This document shows, in pieces, positions 1 through 19,779 of a DNA stretch of 38,749 nt. Source of the DNA: Gammaproteobacteria bacterium. GTDB lineage: Bacteria > Pseudomonadota > Gammaproteobacteria > SZUA-152. The stretch covers positions 1 to 38,749 of the forward strand of contig JAJDNG010000131.1 of assembly GCA_022340845.1 (NCBI GenBank), read 5' to 3'. A program made the translations under genes and the position numbers. Every line of letters begins with the position of its first letter. Within the stretch, counting starts at the first letter, position 1. The notes beneath the pieces were generated by a model, which worked only from the letters and a program-made list of their open reading frames with translations, did no database searches and had not been told where the DNA came from.

Positions 1-1
1 A

Positions 2-766
2 AGCCTGTGGGCGCCGTTGGATTTTGCTCGCCAAAACGGTATCGGGATTTTTTTTCTGGAAGAATACGATCCGCAGAAAATTCCAGTATTGTTTGTGCAC
101 GGGTTTGGCGGAACCCCGCTGGACTGGGAACTGTTTCTCAAAGACCTCGACCGTAGCCGCTATCAACCCTGGCTGTTCTACTATCCTACGGGTGTGCGAT
201 TGTCTAAGTCTGAACGATTGATGTCAACCGTGTTGGATCATTTTAAGAAAAAATACGGTTTTTCCCAGCTGTATATGGTTGCCCACAGCATGGGTGGATT
301 AGTTGCCAGATCGTATATCATTAATTCGATTTGCAGGAATTCGCCAATCCAGGTCAATCTGCTGGTCACACTTTCCACGCCCTGGAACGGCCATAACGCC
401 GCCGCGCGGGGCGTAAGCAACTCGCCGGTGGTGATGCCGGCCTGGATAGATATTCAGCCCGACAGCGGTTTTATCAGGGCACTGTTTGAAATGGATATCA
501 GCTCAACCCTGGATTATTATTTATTTTTTTCGTTTAACAATAATAAAAATAGCTCCGGCGTCGATACCGATGGTACGGTGACTTTAACCAGTCAACTGGA
601 TCAACGGGCGCAACACGAGGCAAAAAAAATGTTTGGCATCAACGCCAGCCACAGAAACATTTTACGTGATGAGAGCGTCGCTGAATCGGTGAACAAAATT
701 CTTAATACCACCACAAGGCAACTGGCGACAAAAAAATCAACAGGGTATTTAGGGCTTGGGGATTAA
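2..766 (+). CDS. Alpha/beta-hydrolase lipase/esterase, 5'-truncated by the window edge
   Basis: The reading frame is already open at base 2, and the residues before the first possible start (TTG at 17) continue smoothly into the domain, so the true N-terminus lies upstream. Seen: an HGFGG oxyanion-hole type motif near the visible N-terminus and the nucleophile elbow A-H-S-M-G-G, typical of PGAP1-like lipases and acyltransferases. A later D-T-D-G-T-V segment may carry the acidic residue, and a late S-H-R-N may carry the catalytic His. Probable role: hydrolysis of a lipid or acyl ester; the substrate cannot be told. The gene ends 18 nt inside the 3' end of the convergent RHS gene. Family assignment is firm, precise function is not. 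Confidence 0.85.
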   Translation, partial: SLWAPLDFARQNGIGIFFLEEYDPQKIPVLFVHGFGGTPLDWELFLKDLDRSRYQPWLFYYPTGVRLSKSERLMSTVLDHFKKKYGFSQLYMVAHSMGGLVARSYIINSICRNSPIQVNLLVTLSTPWNGHNAAARGVSNSPVVMPAWIDIQPDSGFIRALFEMDISSTLDYYLFFSFNNNKNSSGVDTDGTVTLTSQLDQRAQHEAKKMFGINASHRNILRDESVAESVNKILNTTTRQLATKKSTGYLGLGD

Positions 767-3700
767 GCGCAGTGCCCGTAGCCGGGGTCCAGGAGGCAAT
801 GGCCCCGCAGGCGAGGATTCCGTAGAAAAGGGTCCTGTAGGAAAGGGTTCCGCAGAGTGCGGTTTGAACAGTGGTAGTGGCCGTTCAAGGATATGATCGT
901 CCGCCGCTTGCAGTGTTTGATCGTGTGGCGCAAGAGTGTTTTCAAGAATTCGCTCGGGTGAGTCACGCCGGGCCGGGTTTCCTGGGTGGGCCGTAATGCC
1001 ACTGGGTATCGCTGAGGTCGCGGGTGTTGGCTGATATAAATAATGATTACTTTCGCTTCGCAGACTGCGCGGGTTTTGTTGTACAAAACGGCCGATGACC
1101 GGATGGTAATACCGCTGGCGGCCATACAGCAGACCCGTCTCCGAATCATAATAATGGGTGTGAAATCCAATGGCATTGTCTATGTCATCCACCTCGAGTC
1201 GGGCAACGGCACCGTAGGCTTTGTACCTGGCTTGCCAGACGATCTCACCGTCAGCGCGGGTAATGATGCGGGGGGTGCCTTGCTGGTCGGTATGAAAATA
1301 ATACACCTCATCGCCACGCAATTGGCACAGCGGTATTGAGCGGCCGGGTTTATACAGTAAGATGACTGACCCCTCATCGCGCTGCTCTTCATTTCCGACA
1401 AGCTGCTGTTCACAGATTAAGCGCTCACCGTCCCACAGATAGACGGTGTCGCCCCAAGGGGTGTGCTTTTTGATCCGTCGACCCAGTGGATCGTAGCTGT
1501 ATTCAATGGTTTGCGCGTTTTTATTCACCCGCACCAGTTGATTGGCGACATTATAATAGAAGCGGGTTTCCAGCCTGCCCTGAAACTGGCGCACCAGATT
1601 GCCCACATCATCGTATTCGAACCGGTAGTTGTGGAACACTCGCAAACGGTTACCTTGCACAAAGCCATCGGGTTCGGGGTATTGCGAATCCAGCAAATTG
1701 CCCGCCGGGTCAAAAGTAAACTGTGCATCATTGTCATCTTGGAATTCATCAATCAGGCTGCGTTCAATTTTTTCCAGGCGGTCCAGGGCGTCGTAATGAA
1801 ATTTCATTCTGCCGTCCGTAAGATCGTCAATTTGCCGTAGGTTGCCGGCTTTATCGTAGCGATAGCTGCGGTCTATGAGTTGCATATGAGGATTGCTGGC
1901 GTGCTGGTGAAGCAAGCGTCCCAAGGGGTCGTATTCGAATTTGCTGCTGACTTCGCCCGTTGTTCTATGGGTTTCCAGGCCAAAGCGGTCGTGTGTCATT
2001 TTGCAAAGCACTCGCCCGGAATAGCAAACTCGAGTCAATAATCCCCGCTCGTCGTAGTCGTAGCGAATGGTTCTGCCGTTGGGTAAGATCGTATGAGTTC
2101 TTTGTCCCGGAGCGTTATAGCGGTGTTGAATGCGTTGATTGTTTTGCATTTCACCGATGAGTTGTCCCAGGCCGTCGTAACGAAAATGCAGTACGCAGTG
2201 GCTGTTATAGGCCTTGCTAAGTTGGCCTGCGGCATCGTATTCATACTGGGTGATTTCACCGGTGGATGTCCTTTTCTGTAGCAACCGGCCCATGGGGTCG
2301 CGTTTGAATGAAGTGACTCGGTGAGCGCCGTCCAAATACCGTACCAGTTGTCCAGCGGCATTGTACCCGTATTGCTGCAGGCGACCGTCAAATCCTGTTT
2401 CGTTAATCAAGCGCTGGTTTTTATCGTATTGCAATTCATGCCGCTCAGCATTTTCGTTGACAACGGCAGTCAGGTTGCGTTGTTTGTCGTATTCGAACTG
2501 CAGGCGCTGGCCGCCGGGATCGATTTTTTCAACGGGCTGGTTCAAGCCGTCGTATTTGTAACGGGTGGATCTTCCCACGGCATCGATGTACTGAGTCAGG
2601 TTGCCTTGGGGCGTATAGTGCATTTGCACGCTGGCTCCGTTGGGCAAAATGATTTGTGTCACTGAGTTCATCCGGTCGTAAGAATAGTGAGTCGTGTGGT
2701 TATCACCCTCAGTAATCTTGGTGATGCGCCCCAGTGCATCATATGCGTAATGGGTCTTGTTGCCAGCGGCATCGCTCTGCCATAAACACTCTCCTTTCTC
2801 GTTCCATTGGAAACGGCGGGTGCGGTCAAGACAGTCGGTAATGGCACATACCCAACCGTTGGCATCGTATTGATAGTGGGTGGTGTGCCCGCCGGGGTCT
2901 TTGCTCAAGGTCATGTGCCCTTGAGCGTCGTACTGGCGTTCCCACTCGCGCTCCATCGGAGCGACGATCCTGACAAGGTTGTCCGCCGAATCGTATTCAA
3001 ACTCGGTGGCGGCGCCGGTGGCATCGACCCGGCGGGTCAACCGGCCATTGGTATCGTAACGGAATTGGGTGGTATTGCCGATGGGGTTGCGTTCGCTGAG
3101 AAGACGGCCTTCACGACTATAAGTGTATTGCGAGACACCGCCTTCGGCATCTATCTGCGTGGTGATCAAACCGAGTTCATTGTAATGATATTCGGACGTA
3201 TTCCCCAGAGCATCCTTGCTGCGGGTGATTTTGTTCACATCGTCGTATTTAAAGTGATAATCATAAATGTCGTTATCACCCCAGTTACGCGTGCATTTGC
3301 CTTTGATAGTGTATTCATCCCATTGGAAACGAAAACTAAAACCGTCCTTGGATGTGTGTTTGATTATATTATGATAGCGATATTCAAACGACTGAATATT
3401 ACCATTGGCATCTATGGCCTGGATTAAATCGCCGTCGTTATCGTATTTATACTCCACCAACGGCTTACCGGAGATTCCCCCTTGCTCGTCGCAGAGGAAG
3501 ATATTCTGCAGCTGACCGGAAATGGTATGGTTCATTTTCAAGCGCCGACCGGCGCTGTCCAGAATCTGGATCAATCGATCGTTGGCGCTGTAAAACAACT
3601 TGATGGCGTGGCCGTAGCGGTCTGCGATCTCATACAAGCGTCGGCGTATTCCGGAGCCGCCGAAAGTCAGTATGTTGTTGTGGGTGTCGACAATACGGTA

Positions 3701-4828
3701 TACCGTTTTATCGTCGCAATACAGGTTGAGTTGCTCGATAACATTGTGGCAACTCTCACCATCGGCTAAGCGTTCAAAGGGAATGTCGCGCCCGTCACCG
3801 TCCTGGAATATAATTTCGTTTTCGCGCAACTCCAGTCGCGACAACATTTGGGACGTCCAGCCTATTCCCAGGCCAAAATCCTTGCGGTGACTGGTACGGT
3901 AGGTACGTTGCCACAGCAGGGGGATGGGACCGGGCAAGTCTATATCGGTTTGAGTGAGCAGTTCTTCACCGTTCACCAGATTGATGCCACGGTGATTGGT
4001 GCAACGCCGGGAATTTTTAAGGCTGATCAGGCCATTGCCCAGCTTGCCGGGTTTGTGAGTGGTTTTGTGGGCGGATTTGGCCGAGATTTTATTTTTACTG
4101 GAGGAGATTCCAGTGAAGACTTCGGTAACAGGAACACGGCCTGCACAAGCCAGCCAGCGCGATACCGGCTCGCCGGTCACCGCATCGGCATGGGTGAAGC
4201 GTTCGATCAAACTTTTATCACTGTCTGCCCCGGTATCTTGGCGTTTACTGAGCGGTGGTGGGTTTTTGCGTTGGTTTGGATGTTGGGTGGCGGTTTTAGT
4301 GGACGTGCTTGGTTCAACCCGTCTGGAAATGCCGTTACTTGGCTCCGGGCCTGGCTGGCGATTTGCCGTGTGCCGGGAATCGTAATTTTTTTGCGGCGTT
4401 TTTTTTTCCAGGTGTCCGGTGCGACGACGCCCGCTGGAATCGCTGCCCACCGGTGGTGGCTGGTTGTCGTCGGTTGCCGCGGGCTCGCAAGGCAACCATT
4501 GCAAGTTACCTTGCTGCACCAACGCCGAAACCCGTTGCAACAGTTGATTGGCGCCAGCCCCAGGCGAGTCACTAACCGGGTTGATGCTTTCGTCCAATGT
4601 GTCCAGAGTGTTGCGCAGTTGGCTGGACAAGCGCTGGTTGTTCAGTAGATCATCCGTTAACTCGGACAGAGCTTTTTTATACGCATGTTTATAAGACACC
4701 GGCGGATGTCGCTCCGCGCCTTCCGGTTGTGATTCTGGCTTAAACAATAACCAATTGGAGCCCCGCCATAGGATTTGGCCAGGAGGTGTAATGGGTACGG
4801 TTAAATTTTTTGCGGGTGAATCAAGCAT
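749..4828 (-). CDS. RHS/YD-repeat protein, 1359 aa, with degenerate C-terminal tail
   Basis: Seen: a variable, proline- and glycine-rich first ~280 residues with no signal peptide; a block that matches the start of the RHS core (G-E-E-L-L-T-Q-T-D then P-L-L-W-Q-R-T-Y); then about 25 YD-type repeats (Y-D-x-x-G-x-L/T and similar) to about residue 1150; and the RHS-associated core signature Y-Y-D-S-E-T-G-L-L-Y-G-R-x-R-Y-Y followed by I-G-R-F-V. In the family this shell encloses a C-terminal toxin that starts at a DPxG motif. Here the motif reads N-P-R-S, and only ~106 low-complexity residues follow, ending in proline-rich pentapeptides. No toxin domain and no immunity gene are recognised. Either the toxin has been lost or the tail is an unknown type. 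Likely a contact-dependent or secretion-associated shell protein by family. Confidence 0.9.
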   Translation of the reverse strand: MLDSPAKNLTVPITPPGQILWRGSNWLLFKPESQPEGAERHPPVSYKHAYKKALSELTDDLLNNQRLSSQLRNTLDTLDESINPVSDSPGAGANQLLQRVSALVQQGNLQWLPCEPAATDDNQPPPVGSDSSGRRRTGHLEKKTPQKNYDSRHTANRQPGPEPSNGISRRVEPSTSTKTATQHPNQRKNPPPLSKRQDTGADSDKSLIERFTHADAVTGEPVSRWLACAGRVPVTEVFTGISSSKNKISAKSAHKTTHKPGKLGNGLISLKNSRRCTNHRGINLVNGEELLTQTDIDLPGPIPLLWQRTYRTSHRKDFGLGIGWTSQMLSRLELRENEIIFQDGDGRDIPFERLADGESCHNVIEQLNLYCDDKTVYRIVDTHNNILTFGGSGIRRRLYEIADRYGHAIKLFYSANDRLIQILDSAGRRLKMNHTISGQLQNIFLCDEQGGISGKPLVEYKYDNDGDLIQAIDANGNIQSFEYRYHNIIKHTSKDGFSFRFQWDEYTIKGKCTRNWGDNDIYDYHFKYDDVNKITRSKDALGNTSEYHYNELGLITTQIDAEGGVSQYTYSREGRLLSERNPIGNTTQFRYDTNGRLTRRVDATGAATEFEYDSADNLVRIVAPMEREWERQYDAQGHMTLSKDPGGHTTHYQYDANGWVCAITDCLDRTRRFQWNEKGECLWQSDAAGNKTHYAYDALGRITKITEGDNHTTHYSYDRMNSVTQIILPNGASVQMHYTPQGNLTQYIDAVGRSTRYKYDGLNQPVEKIDPGGQRLQFEYDKQRNLTAVVNENAERHELQYDKNQRLINETGFDGRLQQYGYNAAGQLVRYLDGAHRVTSFKRDPMGRLLQKRTSTGEITQYEYDAAGQLSKAYNSHCVLHFRYDGLGQLIGEMQNNQRIQHRYNAPGQRTHTILPNGRTIRYDYDERGLLTRVCYSGRVLCKMTHDRFGLETHRTTGEVSSKFEYDPLGRLLHQHASNPHMQLIDRSYRYDKAGNLRQIDDLTDGRMKFHYDALDRLEKIERSLIDEFQDDNDAQFTFDPAGNLLDSQYPEPDGFVQGNRLRVFHNYRFEYDDVGNLVRQFQGRLETRFYYNVANQLVRVNKNAQTIEYSYDPLGRRIKKHTPWGDTVYLWDGERLICEQQLVGNEEQRDEGSVILLYKPGRSIPLCQLRGDEVYYFHTDQQGTPRIITRADGEIVWQARYKAYGAVARLEVDDIDNAIGFHTHYYDSETGLLYGRQRYYHPVIGRFVQQNPRSLRSESNHYLYQPTPATSAIPSGITAHPGNPARRDSPERILENTLAPHDQTLQAADDHILERPLPLFKPHSAEPFPTGPFSTESSPAGPLPPGPRLRALRLIPKP
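785..859. repeat. Five 15-bp tandem repeats in the 3' end of the RHS gene
   Basis: Five consecutive 15-nt units begin at 785, 800, 815, 830 and 845. They share a GG-x-x-CC-x-x-AG core (for example GGATTCCGTAGAAAA and GGGTTCCGCAGAGTG). On the minus strand they encode pentapeptides such as TGPFS, TESSP and AGPLP. The units are diverged, so this is an old minisatellite. Confidence 0.7.
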
Positions 4829-10582: not shown

Positions 10583-11173
10583 TTATTCTTCCGCCATGTA
10601 CATTTTTGTCGCTAACAAGCTGTAACTCCAGGGTAGGCCATTATTCTTCCAACCATTGACCACGCGCTGGCCTTTTTGCGGGCCTTGTTTGGCTTTGTCG
10701 CCTTCGTAGCCATCGACCACGGTATACACATTTTTATAACCGGCTTTGGCAAGCAGGTTGGCCGCCGCCGCACTTCTACTGCCGGAGCGGCAAATGAACA
10801 CGATTCGGTCGTTTTCGGTTAAACCTTTTGCCGTCAGGCGATCTTTGATTTTGGGCAGGAACTGATCGTTTAATTCCAGCTTAAACTGTTTCTTTTTGTC
10901 GTCCCAGGCATACCATTCGCTCAGTTTCATATAAGGAATGTTGGCATCTGCAACTGTCGGCATGCCCAGAAAATTGACTTCGGCGCGGGTGCGTACATCG
11001 ACAAATAACGTTTTATCAGTTTCTTTTTGCATTAATTCATACGCTTCATGGGAGGTAAGATACAAACCTTGGGTGGTGGTTTTTTTCTTGGGAAGGGTTT
11101 GAGCATCTACAGCCCAGGCTGAAACGGTAACAAAACACAGTAGAAGTGCAAAGAACGGAAGTATTTTTCGCAT
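10583..11173 (-). CDS. Exported single-domain rhodanese
   Basis: Probable periplasmic sulfurtransferase or sulfur-handling protein. Seen: a signal peptide of about 21 residues ending A-W-A; a rhodanese domain with F-V-D-V-R-T-R-A-E; and the active-site loop C-R-S-G-S-R-S with the nucleophile Cys at residue 128. The ORF starts with ATG preceded by AGAGG. It stands alone on the minus strand, followed by a strong terminator. The insert Y-A-W-D-D-K-K-K between the two rhodanese motifs is longer than in minimal rhodaneses. It is not closely similar to the double-rhodanese pair at 17873-19779. Substrate unknown. Confidence 0.9.
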   Translation of the reverse strand: MRKILPFFALLLCFVTVSAWAVDAQTLPKKKTTTQGLYLTSHEAYELMQKETDKTLFVDVRTRAEVNFLGMPTVADANIPYMKLSEWYAWDDKKKQFKLELNDQFLPKIKDRLTAKGLTENDRIVFICRSGSRSAAAANLLAKAGYKNVYTVVDGYEGDKAKQGPQKGQRVVNGWKNNGLPWSYSLLATKMYMAEE

Positions 11174-11380: not shown

Positions 11381-11956
11381 TTATTGGGAAGGAAATTTTC
11401 TCAGTAATTTATTAACGGCTTTTCGAATGGCATCAAGACGTTGCCATTCCGGGTCTTCCAAATCGAGGGGCATTTCAAGGGTGCCCCGCCAGACGACTTG
11501 GGAGGCGTTTCTATCGATGACGTCCACAACAATGGCGCTCTTATCGCTAATCGATTGAAAGCGACGGTTGGCATCGAATGAACTGGAATAGCGAATCTGC
11601 TGGCGACGATAACTTTGGTTCAGTTCCTCAACATTGTAGCGATAGCGATCAGAGACGCTTGTCTCCGCCACGGCTTGATAATTGATCCAGATGTCTGCGG
11701 TTTCCGGCGTACTGAGTGACAAGCCTTTGCTCTGCAATTGCTCACGGAGGCTGGATTGGATGGCTGTATTCAATGTTATTGCATCAACGCCAAAGCCCCC
11801 AACGATGGCATCGCTGGTTTCATCGTCATAGAAGGCAAACGTGTGAAAGCGCAAAAACTCGGTTTGAGGATCGACGGTATAGTTAATTTCATGCACGGAG
11901 CAACCGGTAAAAATAGCGATCGCCATTGCGACTGTTACGGTTCTTAATCGTTTCAT
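11381..11956 (-). CDS. DUF4136-type lipoprotein
   Basis: Seen: an N-terminal signal with lipobox F-T-G-C, giving a lipoprotein of about 170 residues after processing. The body resembles DUF4136: F-H-T-F-A-F-Y-D-D near the start, repeated strand-like segments, A-D-I-W-I-N-Y-Q-A, then I-V-V-D-V-I-D-R-N-A-S-Q-V-V-W-R-G near the end. Family members are small envelope lipoproteins of unknown function. It lies 75 nt downstream of the beta-barrel gene on the same strand and could be the last gene of that operon, or have its own promoter in the AT-rich gap. Confidence 0.8.
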   Translation of the reverse strand: MKRLRTVTVAMAIAIFTGCSVHEINYTVDPQTEFLRFHTFAFYDDETSDAIVGGFGVDAITLNTAIQSSLREQLQSKGLSLSTPETADIWINYQAVAETSVSDRYRYNVEELNQSYRRQQIRYSSSFDANRRFQSISDKSAIVVDVIDRNASQVVWRGTLEMPLDLEDPEWQRLDAIRKAVNKLLRKFPSQ

Positions 11957-12031: not shown

Positions 12032-13294
12032 CTAAAAGAAATAAGCCAGTTGCAGGAATACGGCATCGCCGCCGCTGAAATACACGCCGGGGGTGCCGCT
12101 GGGTATGCCGCCGAATTCCGAGCCTCTGGCGCCCATAGGAAAGCTGAATCCGCCGAACATGGTCAGATCCTGCCGCCAATCGACGTTGAATATCAATTGA
12201 AATAAGGCGCTGGGGTCGGCCGTGTTGATAAACAGATTGGTGTTCAGCAAAGTCAACGGAGTGGTTTCCAGGCTCATACTGGCACCTATGTAGTGTTTTC
12301 CCAGGGTGTAGAGTTCGCCGCGTTGAATTCTATCCAATAATAGAGGGTTATCGGCTAACGCGGCGGGGGAGTAATCGTTGCCGTCCTGGCCGAATCCATT
12401 GTAAAAATACTCCAAAAAACCGGACAGGTTCTTCTCGAACCATACCCAGGAATAGCTGAGATTGGCCACAGCGCTCACCACCGTCTGCGAGCCGGTGTGG
12501 GTGGTGACCACATCGCCTCGTATCACGGTGCCCTGCCAGTCCATGGCGGCGCCGACCGCCAGGAGATTGTCGTCGTAATGCCGGGCGGCCAATAAATCAT
12601 ACTCCTTGCCACTGACAAAACCGTGGTATTTCGCCGCCGCGGAACTGGACTGTGCCGCCACTTTGCCGGTGTCCCGGTCGCGCCGCGGTACCACCACCGC
12701 TTGCACATCATCGCCGCTGGTAAACAACCATTGACCGTACGCCAGGTCATCACCGGTTTTATAATCTTTGTCCACGGCATCGGGCGCGAAGGGATTAAAC
12801 ACGTCCATGGGATTGTATAGCAAACCATTACCCCAGCTAATGGCCTGCCGTCCCAGGCGGACCACCAGGGATTGACCTGTATATCCTACTGTAAGCCGGT
12901 CTATGCGATGCAACAATACCTGGCCCTCCGAGTCGTGAAACACATGGGTCAAGTCGAACAGCCGGCTGCTGTCCGAAATAACGCCATAGGTAAAAAATGA
13001 GGTGGTTTGCGGCACCGTTTGCGCGGCTTTTAAGGTGTCGCTGGACATACCGATCAACTGATAATGAATGCTGGTATCCCACTGATCCCAGCGGTTGTCG
13101 GCCATCAATCGCAGGTCGAGGAAATGATCCGAGGTTTGCTGGGCGTCCACTTGAGCAAACCAGGCATCGTTATCGTAGCGAGTATAAAAATATTGGTACT
13201 TGCTGTGTCCCTTGATGTTCCAGGCCTGGGCGCTGGCGGGCGGATTGGCCCCGCAAGCGGCGAGAATCAATATAATACCGGCAATGCGATGCAT
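12032..13294 (-). CDS. Beta-barrel outer-membrane protein of the ABC operon
   Basis: Seen: an N-terminal signal peptide (about 22 residues, ending A-S-A); many alternating strand segments; a conserved-looking block V-R-L-G-R-Q-A-I-S-W-G-N-G-L-L-Y-N-P-M-D then F-N-P-F-A-P (20 residues quoted at most), as found in DUF1302-like porins; and a C-terminal aromatic strand ending L-A-Y-F-F, the usual signal for Bam-dependent insertion. Its ATG overlaps the stop of the ATPase gene by one base (TGATG), so the two are translationally coupled. It is therefore probably the outer-membrane part of the same export or lipid-trafficking machine. Cargo unknown. Confidence 0.8.
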   Translation of the reverse strand: MHRIAGIILILAACGANPPASAQAWNIKGHSKYQYFYTRYDNDAWFAQVDAQQTSDHFLDLRLMADNRWDQWDTSIHYQLIGMSSDTLKAAQTVPQTTSFFTYGVISDSSRLFDLTHVFHDSEGQVLLHRIDRLTVGYTGQSLVVRLGRQAISWGNGLLYNPMDVFNPFAPDAVDKDYKTGDDLAYGQWLFTSGDDVQAVVVPRRDRDTGKVAAQSSSAAAKYHGFVSGKEYDLLAARHYDDNLLAVGAAMDWQGTVIRGDVVTTHTGSQTVVSAVANLSYSWVWFEKNLSGFLEYFYNGFGQDGNDYSPAALADNPLLLDRIQRGELYTLGKHYIGASMSLETTPLTLLNTNLFINTADPSALFQLIFNVDWRQDLTMFGGFSFPMGARGSEFGGIPSGTPGVYFSGGDAVFLQLAYFF

Positions 13295-13989
13295 CAGGAG
13301 ACGCTTTGCCGGGAGCCATCATCTTCAATTTTGCCATCACGCATTTTGATGAGACGTTTGGCGTAACTCATCACCAGTTTATCGTGAGTGGAGATGATAA
13401 ACGTGGTGCCATGGCGCTGGTTCAAATCGACCAACAAGTCCATGAGGTTTTCCGCGGTGTGCGAATCCAGGTTGGCCGTGGGTTCATCGGCCAACACCAA
13501 ATCCGGTTCCGACACCAAGGCCCTGGCGACTGCCACGCGTTGCTGCTGTCCCCCGGACATTTCCGCCGGGCGGCGGTTTTCCATGCCGGACAATCCCACT
13601 TCATTTAAAATGGAACGGGACTTTTCCGCGCGCTGGCTGTGGTGCATGCCTTGCAGTTGCATGACAAACTCCACATTCTCCTGCGCCGTGAGTACCGGTA
13701 TCAGGTTATAAGCCTGGAACACAAAGCCGATATGGTGCAAACGCATATTGGCCAGTTGTGCTTTATTCATGCGATCCACGCGCTGTTCCGCCACGGTGAT
13801 CTCGCCGTGGGTGGGCGTATCCAGGCCGCCGATCAGGTTCAATAATGTGGTTTTGCCCGAGCCTGAGGGGCCGGACAAACACGCAAACGACCCCGATTGA
13901 ATGTCCAGGTCAATATCGGATAACGCGTGAACAGCCAGCTCGCCTTCGCCGAAGACCTTAGATAATTGTTTGCAGATTACAGTAGACAT
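13294..13989 (-). CDS. ABC transporter ATP-binding protein, LolD/MacB type
   Basis: Cytoplasmic ATPase that powers the two adjoining FtsX-type permeases. Seen: Walker A G-P-S-G-S-G-K-T-T, Q-loop F-V-F-Q-A-Y-N-L-I-P, signature M-S-G-G-Q-Q-Q-R, Walker B L-V-L-A-D-E-P-T-A-N-L-D and the switch His in S-T-H-D. The length of 231 aa is normal for LolD. The F-Q-A-Y-N-L-I-P form is typical of the LolD/MacB/FtsE group, which work by mechanotransmission and not by classical transport. The start is 9 nt after the second permease. Confidence 0.95.
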   Translation of the reverse strand: MSTVICKQLSKVFGEGELAVHALSDIDLDIQSGSFACLSGPSGSGKTTLLNLIGGLDTPTHGEITVAEQRVDRMNKAQLANMRLHHIGFVFQAYNLIPVLTAQENVEFVMQLQGMHHSQRAEKSRSILNEVGLSGMENRRPAEMSGGQQQRVAVARALVSEPDLVLADEPTANLDSHTAENLMDLLVDLNQRHGTTFIISTHDKLVMSYAKRLIKMRDGKIEDDGSRQSVS

Positions 13990-13998
13990 GGTTTTAGG

Positions 13999-15246
13999 TT
14001 ATATCCTGGTAATGGCTTCAACAGGGACATGGCGCGCGGCACGCCATGCCGGATAAAGGCTGGCAATCAATCCCAATACAATGACCACCACATTGGATAA
14101 GATCACATCGCTGGCCTGCACGACGGGATACAGCATGGTGCTCATGCCGGCGTATTCCAGTCCCTCTACGCCCAGGGCGGAAATATCCCAGCCGTCCTGG
14201 ATAGGAATGATGCTTAACCACGATAGCAGGTTGCCGAAGACCAATCCCACGCTTAATAGAAAAAAGGATTCAATCAATACCTGCAGGAGAATCAAGCGCG
14301 GTTTCATGCCCAGGGCCTGAATCAGGCCGATCTCCCGGGTACGCTCGAATACCGCCATCAGCAAGGTGTTGACCAGGCCAAACGACATGGCGATAAAAAC
14401 CACTATAAACCAGACCCAGACAAAACCCTCCACCACATTCAGCATAGTGGCCAAATATTTATCGATCTCCTGCCACGGCAATACTTCCAGGTCGGGCGCC
14501 GCGTCCCTGAGTTTGTCCACAATGGGTTGCTCATGGCGGTAGTCGTTGGTGAGCACCGCCAGTTCCGAGACCTGCGATCCCATCTTTAAAAATTCCTGCG
14601 CGCTTTGCAAGCCGGTAAATACGTAGCTGGTTTCGGTGGCTTCCATTTCGGTATCGAATATGCCGACGACGCGGAAACCCCGATCCACAATGTCATTATC
14701 CGGGTCCTGGCTCATGATGACAATGCGCCATCCCAGCCGGGTTTCCAGGCGTTCGGCCAGTTTGGCGCCAATGATGACACCGTCGTCCCGGGGCGACTGC
14801 AAATAACGGCCGTCTGTGACAGCCCCAGCCAAAAACAACATCTCCCGCTCACGTAGCGGCGATATACCCACCAGGGTGACACCGGCGGATTCTCTTTCGC
14901 TGCTGATGACGGCAGGCACCCGCACCCGCGTGGACCAGGTTTGGATGGCTGGATCCTGCAGCGCTTGTTGCAAGCTATCCGAAGGCGCCGGCATGGAATT
15001 GGCGATAGAGGGATCGTCCCGGTAAGCCGGGGCGTGGATCTGTACGTGAGCGATCAGGTTTTTAATGGAATCGGTAATCATTTGATCCACCATGCCGCGC
15101 ATTATGGCCGTTAACCATATCATGGCCCAGACGCCCACGGCGATGGCGCCTAGCATAATCAAGGTGCGGCGGTGATTGCGCCAGACGTTGCGCCAGGCGA
15201 TAACCGTGAGCATGGCGGTGATTGTGCCAAACGAGTAGCGTGTCAT
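13999..15246 (-). CDS. FtsX/MacB-type ABC permease, second subunit
   Basis: Inner-membrane permease of the LolCE/MacB fold. Start set at ATG 15246: it overlaps the preceding stop as ATGA and gives a normal N-terminus (M-T-R-Y-S-F-G). A start 54 nt further up would run into the upstream gene. Seen: a first membrane helix around residues 30-50, a large periplasmic domain, then three helices in the C-terminal third (F-V-W-V-W-F-I-V-V-F-I-A, then the L-I-Q-A-L-G-M-K-P region) as in the FtsX domain. It pairs with the non-identical permease upstream, as LolC pairs with LolE. Confidence 0.92.
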   Translation of the reverse strand: MTRYSFGTITAMLTVIAWRNVWRNHRRTLIMLGAIAVGVWAMIWLTAIMRGMVDQMITDSIKNLIAHVQIHAPAYRDDPSIANSMPAPSDSLQQALQDPAIQTWSTRVRVPAVISSERESAGVTLVGISPLREREMLFLAGAVTDGRYLQSPRDDGVIIGAKLAERLETRLGWRIVIMSQDPDNDIVDRGFRVVGIFDTEMEATETSYVFTGLQSAQEFLKMGSQVSELAVLTNDYRHEQPIVDKLRDAAPDLEVLPWQEIDKYLATMLNVVEGFVWVWFIVVFIAMSFGLVNTLLMAVFERTREIGLIQALGMKPRLILLQVLIESFFLLSVGLVFGNLLSWLSIIPIQDGWDISALGVEGLEYAGMSTMLYPVVQASDVILSNVVVIVLGLIASLYPAWRAARHVPVEAITRI

Positions 15247-16499
15247 ACCGCCTGCATGGCCTCCACGGGTTTTAATAAATGGATGCGTGTCGCTGGCCAT
15301 AAGGCCGCGAGCAAAGTGGCGATAAAGATTACCCCGGGGCCCAACAACAATGAAACCGAATTTAACGCCGGATAAAAACGATCCGGCAGATTAAATTTCG
15401 ATGCCAGTTCTTCCATGCCGGGATAGCTAAAGCCGTGAATTACGAAATAGGTGGTAAAAGCGGCGCCCGCGGCGATACCGAACAACATGCCCGTGACAGC
15501 CATGAAGAAAGACTCGGTCCAGACCAGGCGGCCCACTTTACCGGGAGTGACGCCTAAGGCGAGCATAATGCCGAATTCCCGGGTTCGCTCCAGCACCGAC
15601 ATCAGAAAGGTGTTTAACACGCTAAAGGCCACTAGCGCCACCAGCACCCCGTACATTAACCACGCCGTGGAAAAATCCGCTTGTATGGCTTGTTTGAGGC
15701 CCGGTTGCAGGCGCTCCCAGTTGACCACATCCAGGTTGTCATCGTGTATCAAGTTGCGCAGCCTGGCGGTTAAGTTTTGAGTTTGCTCGTGGGAGGTGGC
15801 GGTTACCACGATGCTGTGCGCACTGCCGCGCATACTGAACACATCCTGGAAATACCGCAATGGTAACTGCACCAGTTGGCGGTCCAGTTCGGTGTTGCCG
15901 CTCTCGTAGATACCTACGATGGGCACCACGGCCGCGGCGAAAGAACCGTCTTTTCCGCTTCCCAAAAGCGTTAGTTCATCGCCAATGCCAGCTTTGAGAT
16001 TTCGCGCCATAACGCTGCCGATGACCGCTTCTTCGCGGTCCGGGCCGCTCAGGTAACGGCCTTGTTGGATAAGTCCCGGGATCACCGACACCTGGGGTTC
16101 ATACTGCGGTTGTACGCCGGCGATTTGGGCGCCATAGCTGCGCTTTTCGGAGGATACCAGAGCAAAGCCCATGGCGCGCGCACTGACGTGGGCATTGATT
16201 TTGGCTTCGGTGTGACTGTTGGTGTTGTGCAATTCCTGGCGGATATGAGCGGCCAACTCTATGGCATCGGGAACCGTGCGACGCATTTGCGGATTGTCCA
16301 AATAACCGTGTGCTTGAATTTGCACATGGCCGGTAAACGACTGCAAGGTGTTGTCGATCATCATATCGTACTGACCCAGTTGCAGGGCGATCATCCACAC
16401 CAGGAGAACATCGGAAAATACGATCGCCGCTAACGTCAGGCCTGTGCGTCGCGGATGCCGCCACAGATTGCGCCAGGCCAGTGTCAGATTAATACCCAC
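15243..16499 (-). CDS. FtsX/MacB-type ABC permease, first subunit
   Basis: 418-aa partner of the permease that follows. Seen: an N-terminal A-W-R-N-L-W-R-H-P-R-R-T-G motif common to this group, the first helix immediately after, a periplasmic domain of about 230 residues, and three C-terminal helices around V-L-E-R-T-R-E-F-G-I-M-L-A-L-G. The start is GTG at 16499 with no strong ribosome-binding site. The stop overlaps the next start by 4 nt (ATGA), showing coupled translation. Two separate permeases plus a separate ATPase argue for a Lol-like complex, unlike MacB, where both parts are fused. Confidence 0.92.
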   Translation of the reverse strand: MGINLTLAWRNLWRHPRRTGLTLAAIVFSDVLLVWMIALQLGQYDMMIDNTLQSFTGHVQIQAHGYLDNPQMRRTVPDAIELAAHIRQELHNTNSHTEAKINAHVSARAMGFALVSSEKRSYGAQIAGVQPQYEPQVSVIPGLIQQGRYLSGPDREEAVIGSVMARNLKAGIGDELTLLGSGKDGSFAAAVVPIVGIYESGNTELDRQLVQLPLRYFQDVFSMRGSAHSIVVTATSHEQTQNLTARLRNLIHDDNLDVVNWERLQPGLKQAIQADFSTAWLMYGVLVALVAFSVLNTFLMSVLERTREFGIMLALGVTPGKVGRLVWTESFFMAVTGMLFGIAAGAAFTTYFVIHGFSYPGMEELASKFNLPDRFYPALNSVSLLLGPGVIFIATLLAALWPATRIHLLKPVEAMQAV

Positions 16500-16649
16500 G
16501 GTTATTTGTCTTGTTTACCGACGCTATTCCCTGAACAACGCCATTGTTCGGCCGGAAGGGACTCAGTACACTGACAAGCGTAAGGCGCGTCACTTTAATT
16601 CTGCATTTATTTTGTGGAGTCCTCATAGGAACCGGTGGTGTCTTGGTGG

Positions 16650-17423
16650 CTAAAAACGCGGATTGCGCAAATTGGACAACGTGAAGGTGCTCTGTGCAAT
16701 TGCTATATCGAACTCAGCCGATTCAGTCGTGATTTGTGTCCATTCTTGGGGTTTTTCCACATTAACCATGCGCTGTTTTGTCGCCACCGTGCGCCCGCCC
16801 AATTGCGCTATATTCAAAGTTTTCAATTGCTTGGTCAATACCATGGCCTGGTCAAAAAAGGCGTGTTCCAGAATAATATGATCATCACGTATTGTTAATT
16901 GTTCTTTTCCCCAAACCACCGCGGCGTGTTCGAGGGGAATGGATTCGATGACATAAACCGTGTGTTCTTGTTGGATTTCGGTACTGATGATGGTGTGCCG
17001 GTATTCATCGATAATATCGTCGGATTGGGCGATGTCTTTGTTGGAAAAGTCCGACCCCATCCAGCTTTGGTTCATCATGCTGGAGGGAATTTTTATCACC
17101 CGGTTTATTTTCGGGGAATACGTCCACATTTTTTTATCGATGAGCAATGTGGCGTTACCGGCGTCTTTGGCCGGTTCGGTGACCCTCACCAGGGATTTTT
17201 TTTCGCCCAATGTCCAGCTGCGCAGCGTCATGCTGCGCTCCCAGTCCGGGCGGTGAATGGTCATGGTAACCACGGAATACGAGGATGTGCCGCGCCAATG
17301 ATCGATAGCGTTTTTTATAATGGTATTGGCGTCGGGAGCGGCCACACTGGGGCTTGCGAACAATAGTAAAAAAAGCAATAGTAACGAGGTCCAATGAGCG
17401 TTTAGCGCGAGACGTAACGGCAT
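16650..17423 (-). CDS. LolA-like outer-membrane lipoprotein-sorting family protein
   Basis: Exported protein of the LolA-like family (PF17131 type by my reading), first gene of the operon. Seen: a signal peptide of about 28 residues ending S-V-A-A. The mature part has the family pattern with W-x-Y-S-P-K-I-N-R-V-I-K-I-P, then M-x-x-S-W-M-G-S-D-F-S-N-K-D, and alternating strand segments expected for a half-barrel that shields a lipid. AAAGGA precedes the ATG by 5 nt. The 150-nt gap to the next gene is longer than the others in the operon. It is a candidate periplasmic carrier between the permease complex and the beta-barrel protein. Confidence 0.85.
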   Translation of the reverse strand: MPLRLALNAHWTSLLLLFLLLFASPSVAAPDANTIIKNAIDHWRGTSSYSVVTMTIHRPDWERSMTLRSWTLGEKKSLVRVTEPAKDAGNATLLIDKKMWTYSPKINRVIKIPSSMMNQSWMGSDFSNKDIAQSDDIIDEYRHTIISTEIQQEHTVYVIESIPLEHAAVVWGKEQLTIRDDHIILEHAFFDQAMVLTKQLKTLNIAQLGGRTVATKQRMVNVEKPQEWTQITTESAEFDIAIAQSTFTLSNLRNPRF

Positions 17424-17872: not shown

Positions 17873-18724
17873 ATGTCAGTGCAATTTGAATCTATACCTT
17901 CAGGCCGTAATCGATACGGTGTTTGGCTATTCATAGTGAGTTGTTACCTCGCGATGTCGCCATCCAGCTATGCTGTTGATAATCCAAATGAATTTCCAGG
18001 GCGAGAATTATATCCACTGGTCCCGATCATTGAATTGGATAAGCTGTTCGAAGTGTTTTCCGATGTGACGGTTGTGGATGTACGCTCGCAGTATGAGTTT
18101 GAAACCTTGCGCATCAAAGGGGCAGTGAATATTCCTTTATCCTCCCCCACCTTCGTGGAGCAAATGGGAGCGTTGCGCAGTAAGGATAACCGACCCATCG
18201 TGGTGTACTGCAACGGAAAAACCTGCATGAAGTCGTATAAAGCGGCTCTCAAGTGTTCAGTGAACAAAATTGATGATGTACAAGCCTACGATGCCGGCAT
18301 CATGGATTGGGCGCGCACTTATCCCCAGCATGCGGTATTGTTGGGGCGCAGCCCCGTCGATACCAAGAAATTGATATCCCAGGAAGAATTCAAAAAACAC
18401 CTGCTCAGCCCCGATCAATACGGTGAACAAGTCGCCTCCTCGTCAGCCATTGTGCTGGATGTTCGTGACCGTTTTCAGCGCGAAGGCTTGTCATTATTTG
18501 TGGGCCGCGAGCGGCGTGCGTATTTGGATGACACCAAAAGCCTGGACCGCTATATCGAAAAAGCCAAGCGGGAAAACAAACCCCTGCTGGTACACGACGC
18601 CGCCGGCAAACAAGTGCGTTGGTTGCAATATTATCTATACGACAAAGGCTTACGCGATTTTTATTTTATGGAAGGCGGCACTTCGGCGTACTATGAACAA
18701 ATGAAAAAAGAATTTATCCGCTAA
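17873..18724 (+). CDS. Exported double-rhodanese protein, copy 1
   Basis: Probable periplasmic protein with two rhodanese-like domains. Seen: a signal peptide (about 34 residues ending S-S-Y-A), the motif F-P-G-R-E-L-Y-P, then domain 1 with V-V-D-V-R-S-Q-Y-E and active-site loop C-N-G-K-T-C (Cys 113 and 118). Domain 2 has V-L-D-V-R-D-R-F-Q but H-D-A-A-G-K-Q where the Cys loop should be, so it lacks the nucleophile. ATG is preceded by AGGGGGA. Its closest relative in the window is the next gene, which shares both domains and the odd second loop. It may relay sulfur or sense redox state; the partner is unknown. Confidence 0.88.
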   Translation: MSVQFESIPSGRNRYGVWLFIVSCYLAMSPSSYAVDNPNEFPGRELYPLVPIIELDKLFEVFSDVTVVDVRSQYEFETLRIKGAVNIPLSSPTFVEQMGALRSKDNRPIVVYCNGKTCMKSYKAALKCSVNKIDDVQAYDAGIMDWARTYPQHAVLLGRSPVDTKKLISQEEFKKHLLSPDQYGEQVASSSAIVLDVRDRFQREGLSLFVGRERRAYLDDTKSLDRYIEKAKRENKPLLVHDAAGKQVRWLQYYLYDKGLRDFYFMEGGTSAYYEQMKKEFIR

Positions 18725-18942
18725 TCCAGCTCCATCTTATAATTCCTCTTATGCAGTAATCCCCCCCCGTCTGTTGCGGCTATGGCCGCAGGCCCGCCTG
18801 TGATTGCGCGAAATCGCTAAAGAAAACCCCACGTTGATCGTTAATTATGGTGGATAAAAATCAAAAGCGGATGCATTGGCAGCCGTAGCACATGGCGCGA
18901 ATGCAGGCTGGAGAAGGATTAATTCAACAAACGGTGAACGTT

Positions 18943-19779
18943 ATGGTCTCATTGAATCGTGGTAAGTTCCGTATGATAGGTATGGCATTCGTTGCCCTGA
19001 TAGCCGCTATTGGCTTGTCCGGTCATGCGATGGCAGCAGAGGGGCAAGGCGATTTCCCCGGGCGAAAGTTGTACCCCGAAATATCCCATATTTCCATAGA
19101 ACAATTACATGGCCGGCAAAACGACGTGGTCATTGTGGATGTGCGTTCGGCGTACGAATACCAGACCCTGAGAATTGCTAACGCCATCAACATTTCCGTG
19201 GCGGATGCCAATTTTATCGAGCAAATGCAGGCATTACGAAAACAAGATCCACGGCAAATCGTTGTGTACTGCAATGGTAAAACCTGCATGAAGTCTTACA
19301 AGGCCGCCAGAAAGTGTCAGTTGGAAGGCATAGAAGACGTGCTGGCTTATGACGCCGGGGTGATGGATTGGGCGCAAAAATATCCGGCCGACACGTTATT
19401 GCTGGATGTTAAACTCAATGATCCGTCAAAACTGATCAGTAAGGCCCATTTCAAGAAGCACACACTTACCCCCGATGATTTTGGCGAACGGTTGGCTTCA
19501 ACTGATGACATAGTGTTAGATGTGCGCGACCGTTTTCAACGCGAAGGTTTATCAATATTCGTGGGCCGGGAATACCGGGTGTATTTGGACGATACCAAGA
19601 AGCTGGACCGCTACATCAATAAAGCCATAAGAGAAAATAAAGGGTTGTTAGTTTATGATGCGGCCGGCAAACAAGTGCGCTGGTTGCAATATTATCTGGA
19701 AAGCAAAGGCATAAAGAATTATTACTTTATGGACGGCGGCATCCACGCTTATTACAAACAGATTGAAAAAGATTTATAA
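18943..19779 (+). CDS. Exported double-rhodanese protein, copy 2 (paralog)
   Basis: Tandem paralog of the gene upstream, with the same architecture: F-P-G-R-K-L-Y-P, active loop C-N-G-K-T-C in domain 1 (Cys near residue 110), and a Cys-less Y-D-A-A-G-K-Q loop in domain 2. Start placed at ATG 18943 because it gives an ordinary signal peptide (M-V-S-L-N-R-G-K-F-R, hydrophobic core, A-M-A) of a length like copy 1. ATG 18892 in the same frame would add 17 residues before it, and neither has a strong ribosome-binding site. A strong terminator follows 21 nt after the stop. The intergenic 218 bp may hold its own promoter. Confidence 0.87.
   Translation: MVSLNRGKFRMIGMAFVALIAAIGLSGHAMAAEGQGDFPGRKLYPEISHISIEQLHGRQNDVVIVDVRSAYEYQTLRIANAINISVADANFIEQMQALRKQDPRQIVVYCNGKTCMKSYKAARKCQLEGIEDVLAYDAGVMDWAQKYPADTLLLDVKLNDPSKLISKAHFKKHTLTPDDFGERLASTDDIVLDVRDRFQREGLSIFVGREYRVYLDDTKKLDRYINKAIRENKGLLVYDAAGKQVRWLQYYLESKGIKNYYFMDGGIHAYYKQIEKDL

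Follow-up and report, generated by a model that had tools for sequence, protein, structure and literature searches.

In type VII ABC proteins such as MacB and LolE, ATP-driven motions of the periplasmic domain serve to extract substrates or to push them outward. How lipids reach the outer membrane, LPS and lipoproteins aside, has long been an open question, and a compact, conserved operon that holds an engine, a carrier and a barrel would offer a directly testable system for it. One described relative of the operon reported here is the Lol pathway, with which it shares the type VII ABC permease fold (four transmembrane helices), a separate ATPase subunit and a soluble carrier of the LolA superfamily; in Escherichia coli, the Hook of the Lol permease is essential for LolA recruitment (PMC10865981). 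Another is AmeABCD of Castellaniella defragrans (RND HAE3, DUF1329 and DUF1302), which has been proposed to export apolar monoterpenes and whose deletion lowers monoterpene tolerance (PMC6394551). Both in AmeABCD and in our operon, a LolA-superfamily periplasmic protein and a barrel are encoded with an inner-membrane transporter. The engine of AmeABCD is of the RND type, whereas ABC permeases and an ATPase take this place here, with no HAE3 or MMPL protein in the operon; AmeABCD also has an additional periplasmic component, AmeC, and AmeA measures 605 aa against 420 aa for the barrel described below. The Borrelia BBJ23-29 system (PMC13078400) likewise combines a LolA-like protein, a MacB/LolE-type ABC transporter and a barrel, with proposed export of a non-polar ligand, but its barrel is of the Omp85/BamA type, its single permease acts as a homodimer, and two TPR proteins and a protein of unknown function are also present. 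The open-licence papers searched yielded these analogues and no description of the five-gene set itself, an absence that is weak evidence.

The five genes occupy positions 12032 to 17423 on the minus strand of the window (the whole 38,749-nucleotide stretch analyzed here), where all the open reading frames are present in the sequence. The original prediction of a LolA-like protein, two different FtsX-type permeases, an ATPase and a barrel in one minus-strand run agrees with the open reading frames, the Pfam assignments and the AlphaFold2 models. The first gene (16650 to 17423) encodes the LolA-like periplasmic carrier, of 257 aa, with a type I signal peptide without a lipobox. It belongs to PF17131 (162.8 bits, E 8.7e-48), matches DUF1329 weakly, has no match to the LolA family PF03548 in Pfam, and has the PDB relatives 9tp6, 4z48, 3buu and 3bk5. 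The two permeases, both with MacB_PCD and FtsX domains in Pfam, are distinct proteins with 27% identity. Permease 1 (15243 to 16499; 418 aa, GTG start) was modeled by AlphaFold2 with a pLDDT of 95 and four long transmembrane helices (residues 16-54, 266-304, 319-355 and 381-408), and its best fold matches are LolE and LolC, at a TM-score of about 0.6 to 0.67. Permease 2 (13999 to 15246; 415 aa) has LolF/LolE relatives in the PDB and starts at 15246 or at an in-frame ATG at 15213, which fits the N termini of the homologues equally well. The ABC ATPase (13294 to 13989; 231 aa) is of the LolD/DevA/MacB type (ABC_tran, E 2.9e-34), and inspection by eye found its catalytic motifs intact (Walker A GPSGSGKT, signature MSGGQQQR and Walker B LVLADEP). 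The last gene (12032 to 13294; 420 aa) encodes the predicted outer-membrane beta-barrel. The four-base and one-base overlaps noted earlier fall between the two permeases (ATGA, 15246-15243) and between the ATPase and the barrel (TGATG, at 13294), respectively. Not all junctions are tight, as 150 bp separate the LolA-like gene from permease 1 and 9 bp separate permease 2 from the ATPase. A comparison with PHROGs gave no match, and a promoter scan remained at chance level (8 found against 7.0 expected).

The AlphaFold2 model of the barrel, built with 67 homologues, has a pLDDT of 94.5, a pTM of 0.89 and about 19 strand segments. Since its best Foldseek matches in the PDB are MOMP, OmpM1, AlgE and porins (TM-score of about 0.4 to 0.55), the barrel is generally porin-like and not a TolC. 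Omp85 was found neither by Pfam nor among the 50 best fold matches, and the sequence had no credible match in the PDB. A distant likeness to DUF1302, the barrel family of AmeABCD, lies just under the Pfam threshold (21.9 bits for a cut-off of 23.2). The barrel carries the motif GRQxxxWG...D..NPF...YKxGxD, and 61 of the 67 barrels, including that of the window, end in Phe, the usual outer-membrane assembly signal. A lipobox-like LAAC in the N terminus of the window barrel (13294-13223) is absent from all 66 homologues, and we set aside the idea of a lipoprotein barrel.

A canonical Lol set is encoded elsewhere in the same genome and is complete. It comprises a LolCE/LolF permease on contig C25 (503.7 bits for a cut-off of 362) with a LolD-like ATPase adjoining it, a LolA on C71 (154 bits) and a LolB on C55 (150 bits). 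The five-gene set is thus a dedicated extra system, which disposes of the possibility that it is the housekeeping Lol in disguise. Nor is the suggestion that the barrel replaces LolB supported: with a LolB encoded elsewhere, the barrel, which lies inside the operon here, is an addition and not a substitute within Lol. The labels LolCE-like and LolD-like hold for the fold and for distant homology, but the scores are well under the Lol cut-offs: the permeases reach 141 and 96 bits against the lolCE family TIGR02212 (cut-off 362), which is nevertheless their best curated family, and the ATPase reaches 224.7 bits against the LolD family TIGR02211 (cut-off 307.75).

The Hook insertion is also missing. 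All 16 non-canonical permeases in the alignment, both operon permeases included, are five residues shorter in the Hook region and lack the PAGILP of the genome's own LolF, in a test that relies on length and alignment because the sequence conservation of the Hook is low (PMC10865981). In the model of permease 1, a short hairpin (strands 175-181 and 187-198) occupies the site, and the model fits the Hook-deleted LolC domain (6f49, TM-score 0.70) at least as well as intact LolC (6f3z, 0.66). Since neither permease has the Hook that LolC and LolF use, the mode in which the LolA-like protein docks on them likely has to differ from that in Lol. The carrier differs as well, as it is a PF17131 protein and that of Lol a PF03548 protein. 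The five-gene set resembles Lol in its general working, but because it departs from Lol in four of the defining features tested, we do not class it as Lol and place it, as a real and conserved arrangement, among probable variants of LolA-carrier envelope lipid transporters.

The conservation of the set was assessed independently from both of its ends. A search in relatives with the barrel alone returned 11 loci, 10 of them with usable context; nine hold a LolA-like gene, two permeases (or one fused), the ATPase and the barrel, and the tenth is cut by a contig end and keeps the ATPase. A barrel profile gave matches, many of them weak, in 49 of 299 Pseudomonadota genomes, and among the 20 strong loci inspected the whole set was present in 19 (one of them with a permease broken into two reading frames); in the remaining locus, the ATPase and the barrel were the only members seen. 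Altogether, the other four genes accompany the barrel in 28 of the 30 loci from these barrel-only searches, so that the co-occurrence on which the original prediction depended is borne out and the possibility that the barrel is a chance neighbor can be dismissed. In the opposite direction, a LolA-like profile applied to GTDB genomes gave 54 loci with 5.5 kb or more of downstream sequence, and 53 read permease-permease-ATPase-barrel in the same order (one with three permeases); these loci come from the 80 best-scoring matches to the window and are biased toward close relatives, a bias that the barrel-first sets do not have. The sole exception is Desulfonema magnum, in which an orphan LolA-like gene is followed by a short-unit repeat array in place of the permeases (locus L103, 8962-11403).

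The lineages named in the record titles of the loci found with the LolA-like profile include Gammaproteobacteria, Alphaproteobacteria, Desulfobacterales, Bdellovibrionales, Denitrovibrio, Acidobacteria/Thermoanaerobaculia, Chitinophagales, Saprospiraceae and other Bacteroidota. Full copies are found in cultured strains, such as those of Pseudohalioglobus lutimaris and Kineobactrum sediminis, and on a Vibrio campbellii replicon. The median junctions over 61 homologous loci are +3, +1, +10 and -1 bp, values made slightly favorable because each gene was taken to start at the codon closest to the preceding stop; being near zero over so many loci, they indicate that the coupling is conserved and not due to chance. 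In four loci, the permeases are fused into a single protein of 834 to 835 aa in the order LolA-ATPase-fused permease-barrel, which indicates that the permeases function as a pair. Many genomes of one small-genome family from another class of the phylum (f104, including G103, G111 and G200) also contain the barrel, at a far greater density than elsewhere; a lineage-wide role of the barrel in this family may point to the substrate.

PF17131 is found at four places in the genome of the window. One of them, on contig C53 (L122:3294-8373), has the order TetR, MMPL (an RND protein of 799 aa), LolA-like and a 404-aa barrel without a Pfam family. This type of operon is common in the family, and its barrel was found in 41 of the 76 genomes searched; of 30 loci, 29 have a LolA-like gene next to the barrel and 26 have both a LolA-like and an MMPL gene, the rest being mostly contig ends. 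The ABC-linked and RND-linked barrels align in a profile-profile comparison (hhalign probability of 96.2%, E 2.7e-9, 268 columns) at GRQxxxWG, in contrast to a probability of 5% when single sequences are compared. The LolA-like proteins of the two operons are also homologous, and in a tree of 81 of these proteins the ABC-linked and RND-linked rows separate with 100/100 support, for which reason the change of engine appears to be old within this sampling. The C53 operon therefore shares the PF17131 carrier and a homologous barrel with the five-gene set and differs in its MMPL/RND engine and its own LolA-like clade. Because the same carrier family and a homologous barrel are paired with an RND pump in the same genome, the LolA-like protein and the barrel can be regarded as a module coupled to either engine, a general design comparable to the ABC and RND alternatives in tripartite efflux. 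RND-type operons with TetR, MMPL and LolA-like genes are reported to be strongly iron-regulated in Porphyromonas and Prevotella, with no function assigned to them (PMC10434189).

A partial second ABC operon is present on contig C192 (positions 1-3793), with a LolA-like gene (521-1336) and two permease genes (1333-2553 and 2557-3786) that end at the contig edge. Its LolA-like protein is 56% identical to that of the window, and its permeases are 43% and 45% identical. No second copy of the barrel is detectable in the genome; the C192 copy is incomplete, mis-assembled or derived from contamination.

Taken together with the conservation of the five genes, these comparisons make it probable that the operon encodes an ATP-driven exporter dedicated to moving a lipid, or a compound of similar hydrophobicity, across the envelope. 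In this reading, a type VII (mechanotransmission) ABC transporter built from both permeases and an ATPase dimer would lift the substrate out of the inner membrane's periplasmic leaflet. The LolA-like protein would take the substrate into its hydrophobic cavity and cross the periplasm, and the barrel would act as the acceptor, placing the substrate in the outer membrane or letting it out. The operon would then be the ATP-driven twin of the RND-driven system in the same genome. We infer a physical complex, an outward direction and a hand-over to the barrel; export is the likelier direction given the type of ABC transporter, and contact between the LolA-like protein and the barrel is suggested by their co-occurrence. 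The family to which the carrier belongs, the analogy with AmeABCD and the TetR regulators point to a hydrophobic substrate. The dedicated exporter proposed at the outset thus stands as an inner-to-outer-membrane route apart from the housekeeping Lol, given the complete Lol set elsewhere and the co-occurrence of the barrel, with lipids, lipoproteins and metabolites as the candidate substrate classes. A broader view, to which we give somewhat less than an even chance, is that a LolA-like carrier and a lipid-accepting barrel form an interchangeable module on a type VII ABC or an RND pump, defining a widespread, undescribed class of systems for ATP-driven export of lipids or hydrophobic metabolites into or across the outer membrane. 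The present annotations ("outer membrane lipoprotein-sorting protein" and "ABC transporter permease") mask this design.

A second Lol-type path for a subset of lipoproteins would give these parts another meaning: the permeases would extract triacylated lipoproteins, the LolA-like protein would carry them, and the barrel would insert them or flip them to the surface, in line with a proposal made for the Borrelia BBJ23-29 cluster. The permease fold is nearest to LolE and LolC, the best curated family is lolCE (below its cut-off), and the system proposed in Borrelia is made of comparable components (PMC13078400), but the loss in both permeases of a Hook without which LolA is not recruited in E. 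coli (PMC10865981), the lack of a PF03548 match in the carrier and the absence of a conserved lipoprotein gene in the flanks of the homologous loci argue against it. In addition, the RND twin has the same module, and the characterized RND analogue acts on apolar compounds. We therefore regard lipoprotein transport as unlikely. Still less probable is uptake or retrograde transport, in which the barrel would admit hydrophobic nutrients or lipids, the LolA-like protein would collect them and the ABC transporter would handle them at the inner membrane. Type VII ABC proteins with the MacB/LolE fold are known to export or extract their substrates, and no conserved catabolic gene lies beside the operon in the flanks of the homologous loci; uptake is kept as a rival because the DUF1302 and DUF1329 proteins of Pseudomonas putida (PP_0765/PP_0766) are required for growth on Tween 20 (PMC10866462). 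Least probable of all is a drug efflux pump of the MacAB-TolC kind in which some parts have been exchanged and which acts on externally supplied toxic compounds, because the MacB_PCD and FtsX domains and the TetR regulators that recall such pumps are accompanied by permeases without a fused ATPase, by a porin/AlgE-like rather than a TolC-like barrel and, in the flanks, by no conserved MacA/HlyD adaptor or TolC gene.

Returning to the favored reading of a hydrophobic-compound exporter, the flanks of the homologous loci contribute one recurrent element. A TetR gene lies directly upstream in 12 loci, a minority, and was confirmed by Pfam in all six tested; in several loci, it shares a few bases with the LolA-like gene. 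It is absent from the window, and as evidence for a hydrophobic substrate it is no more than suggestive. Beyond lineage-specific synteny, no biosynthetic gene recurs in the flanks, and TetR is the only neighbor that recurs across phyla. In the window, a DUF4136 protein with a lipobox-like N terminus is encoded on the same strand 75 bp downstream of the barrel (11381-11956, minus strand); it is not a recurring neighbor of the homologous loci, and we rejected it as a sixth member. Secreted-rhodanese-like proteins also flank the operon, at 17873-18724 and 18892-19779 on the plus strand and at 10583-11173 on the minus strand. The first and the last were confirmed by Pfam, and the one at 18892-19779 is a close look-alike of the first, with which it lies in tandem.
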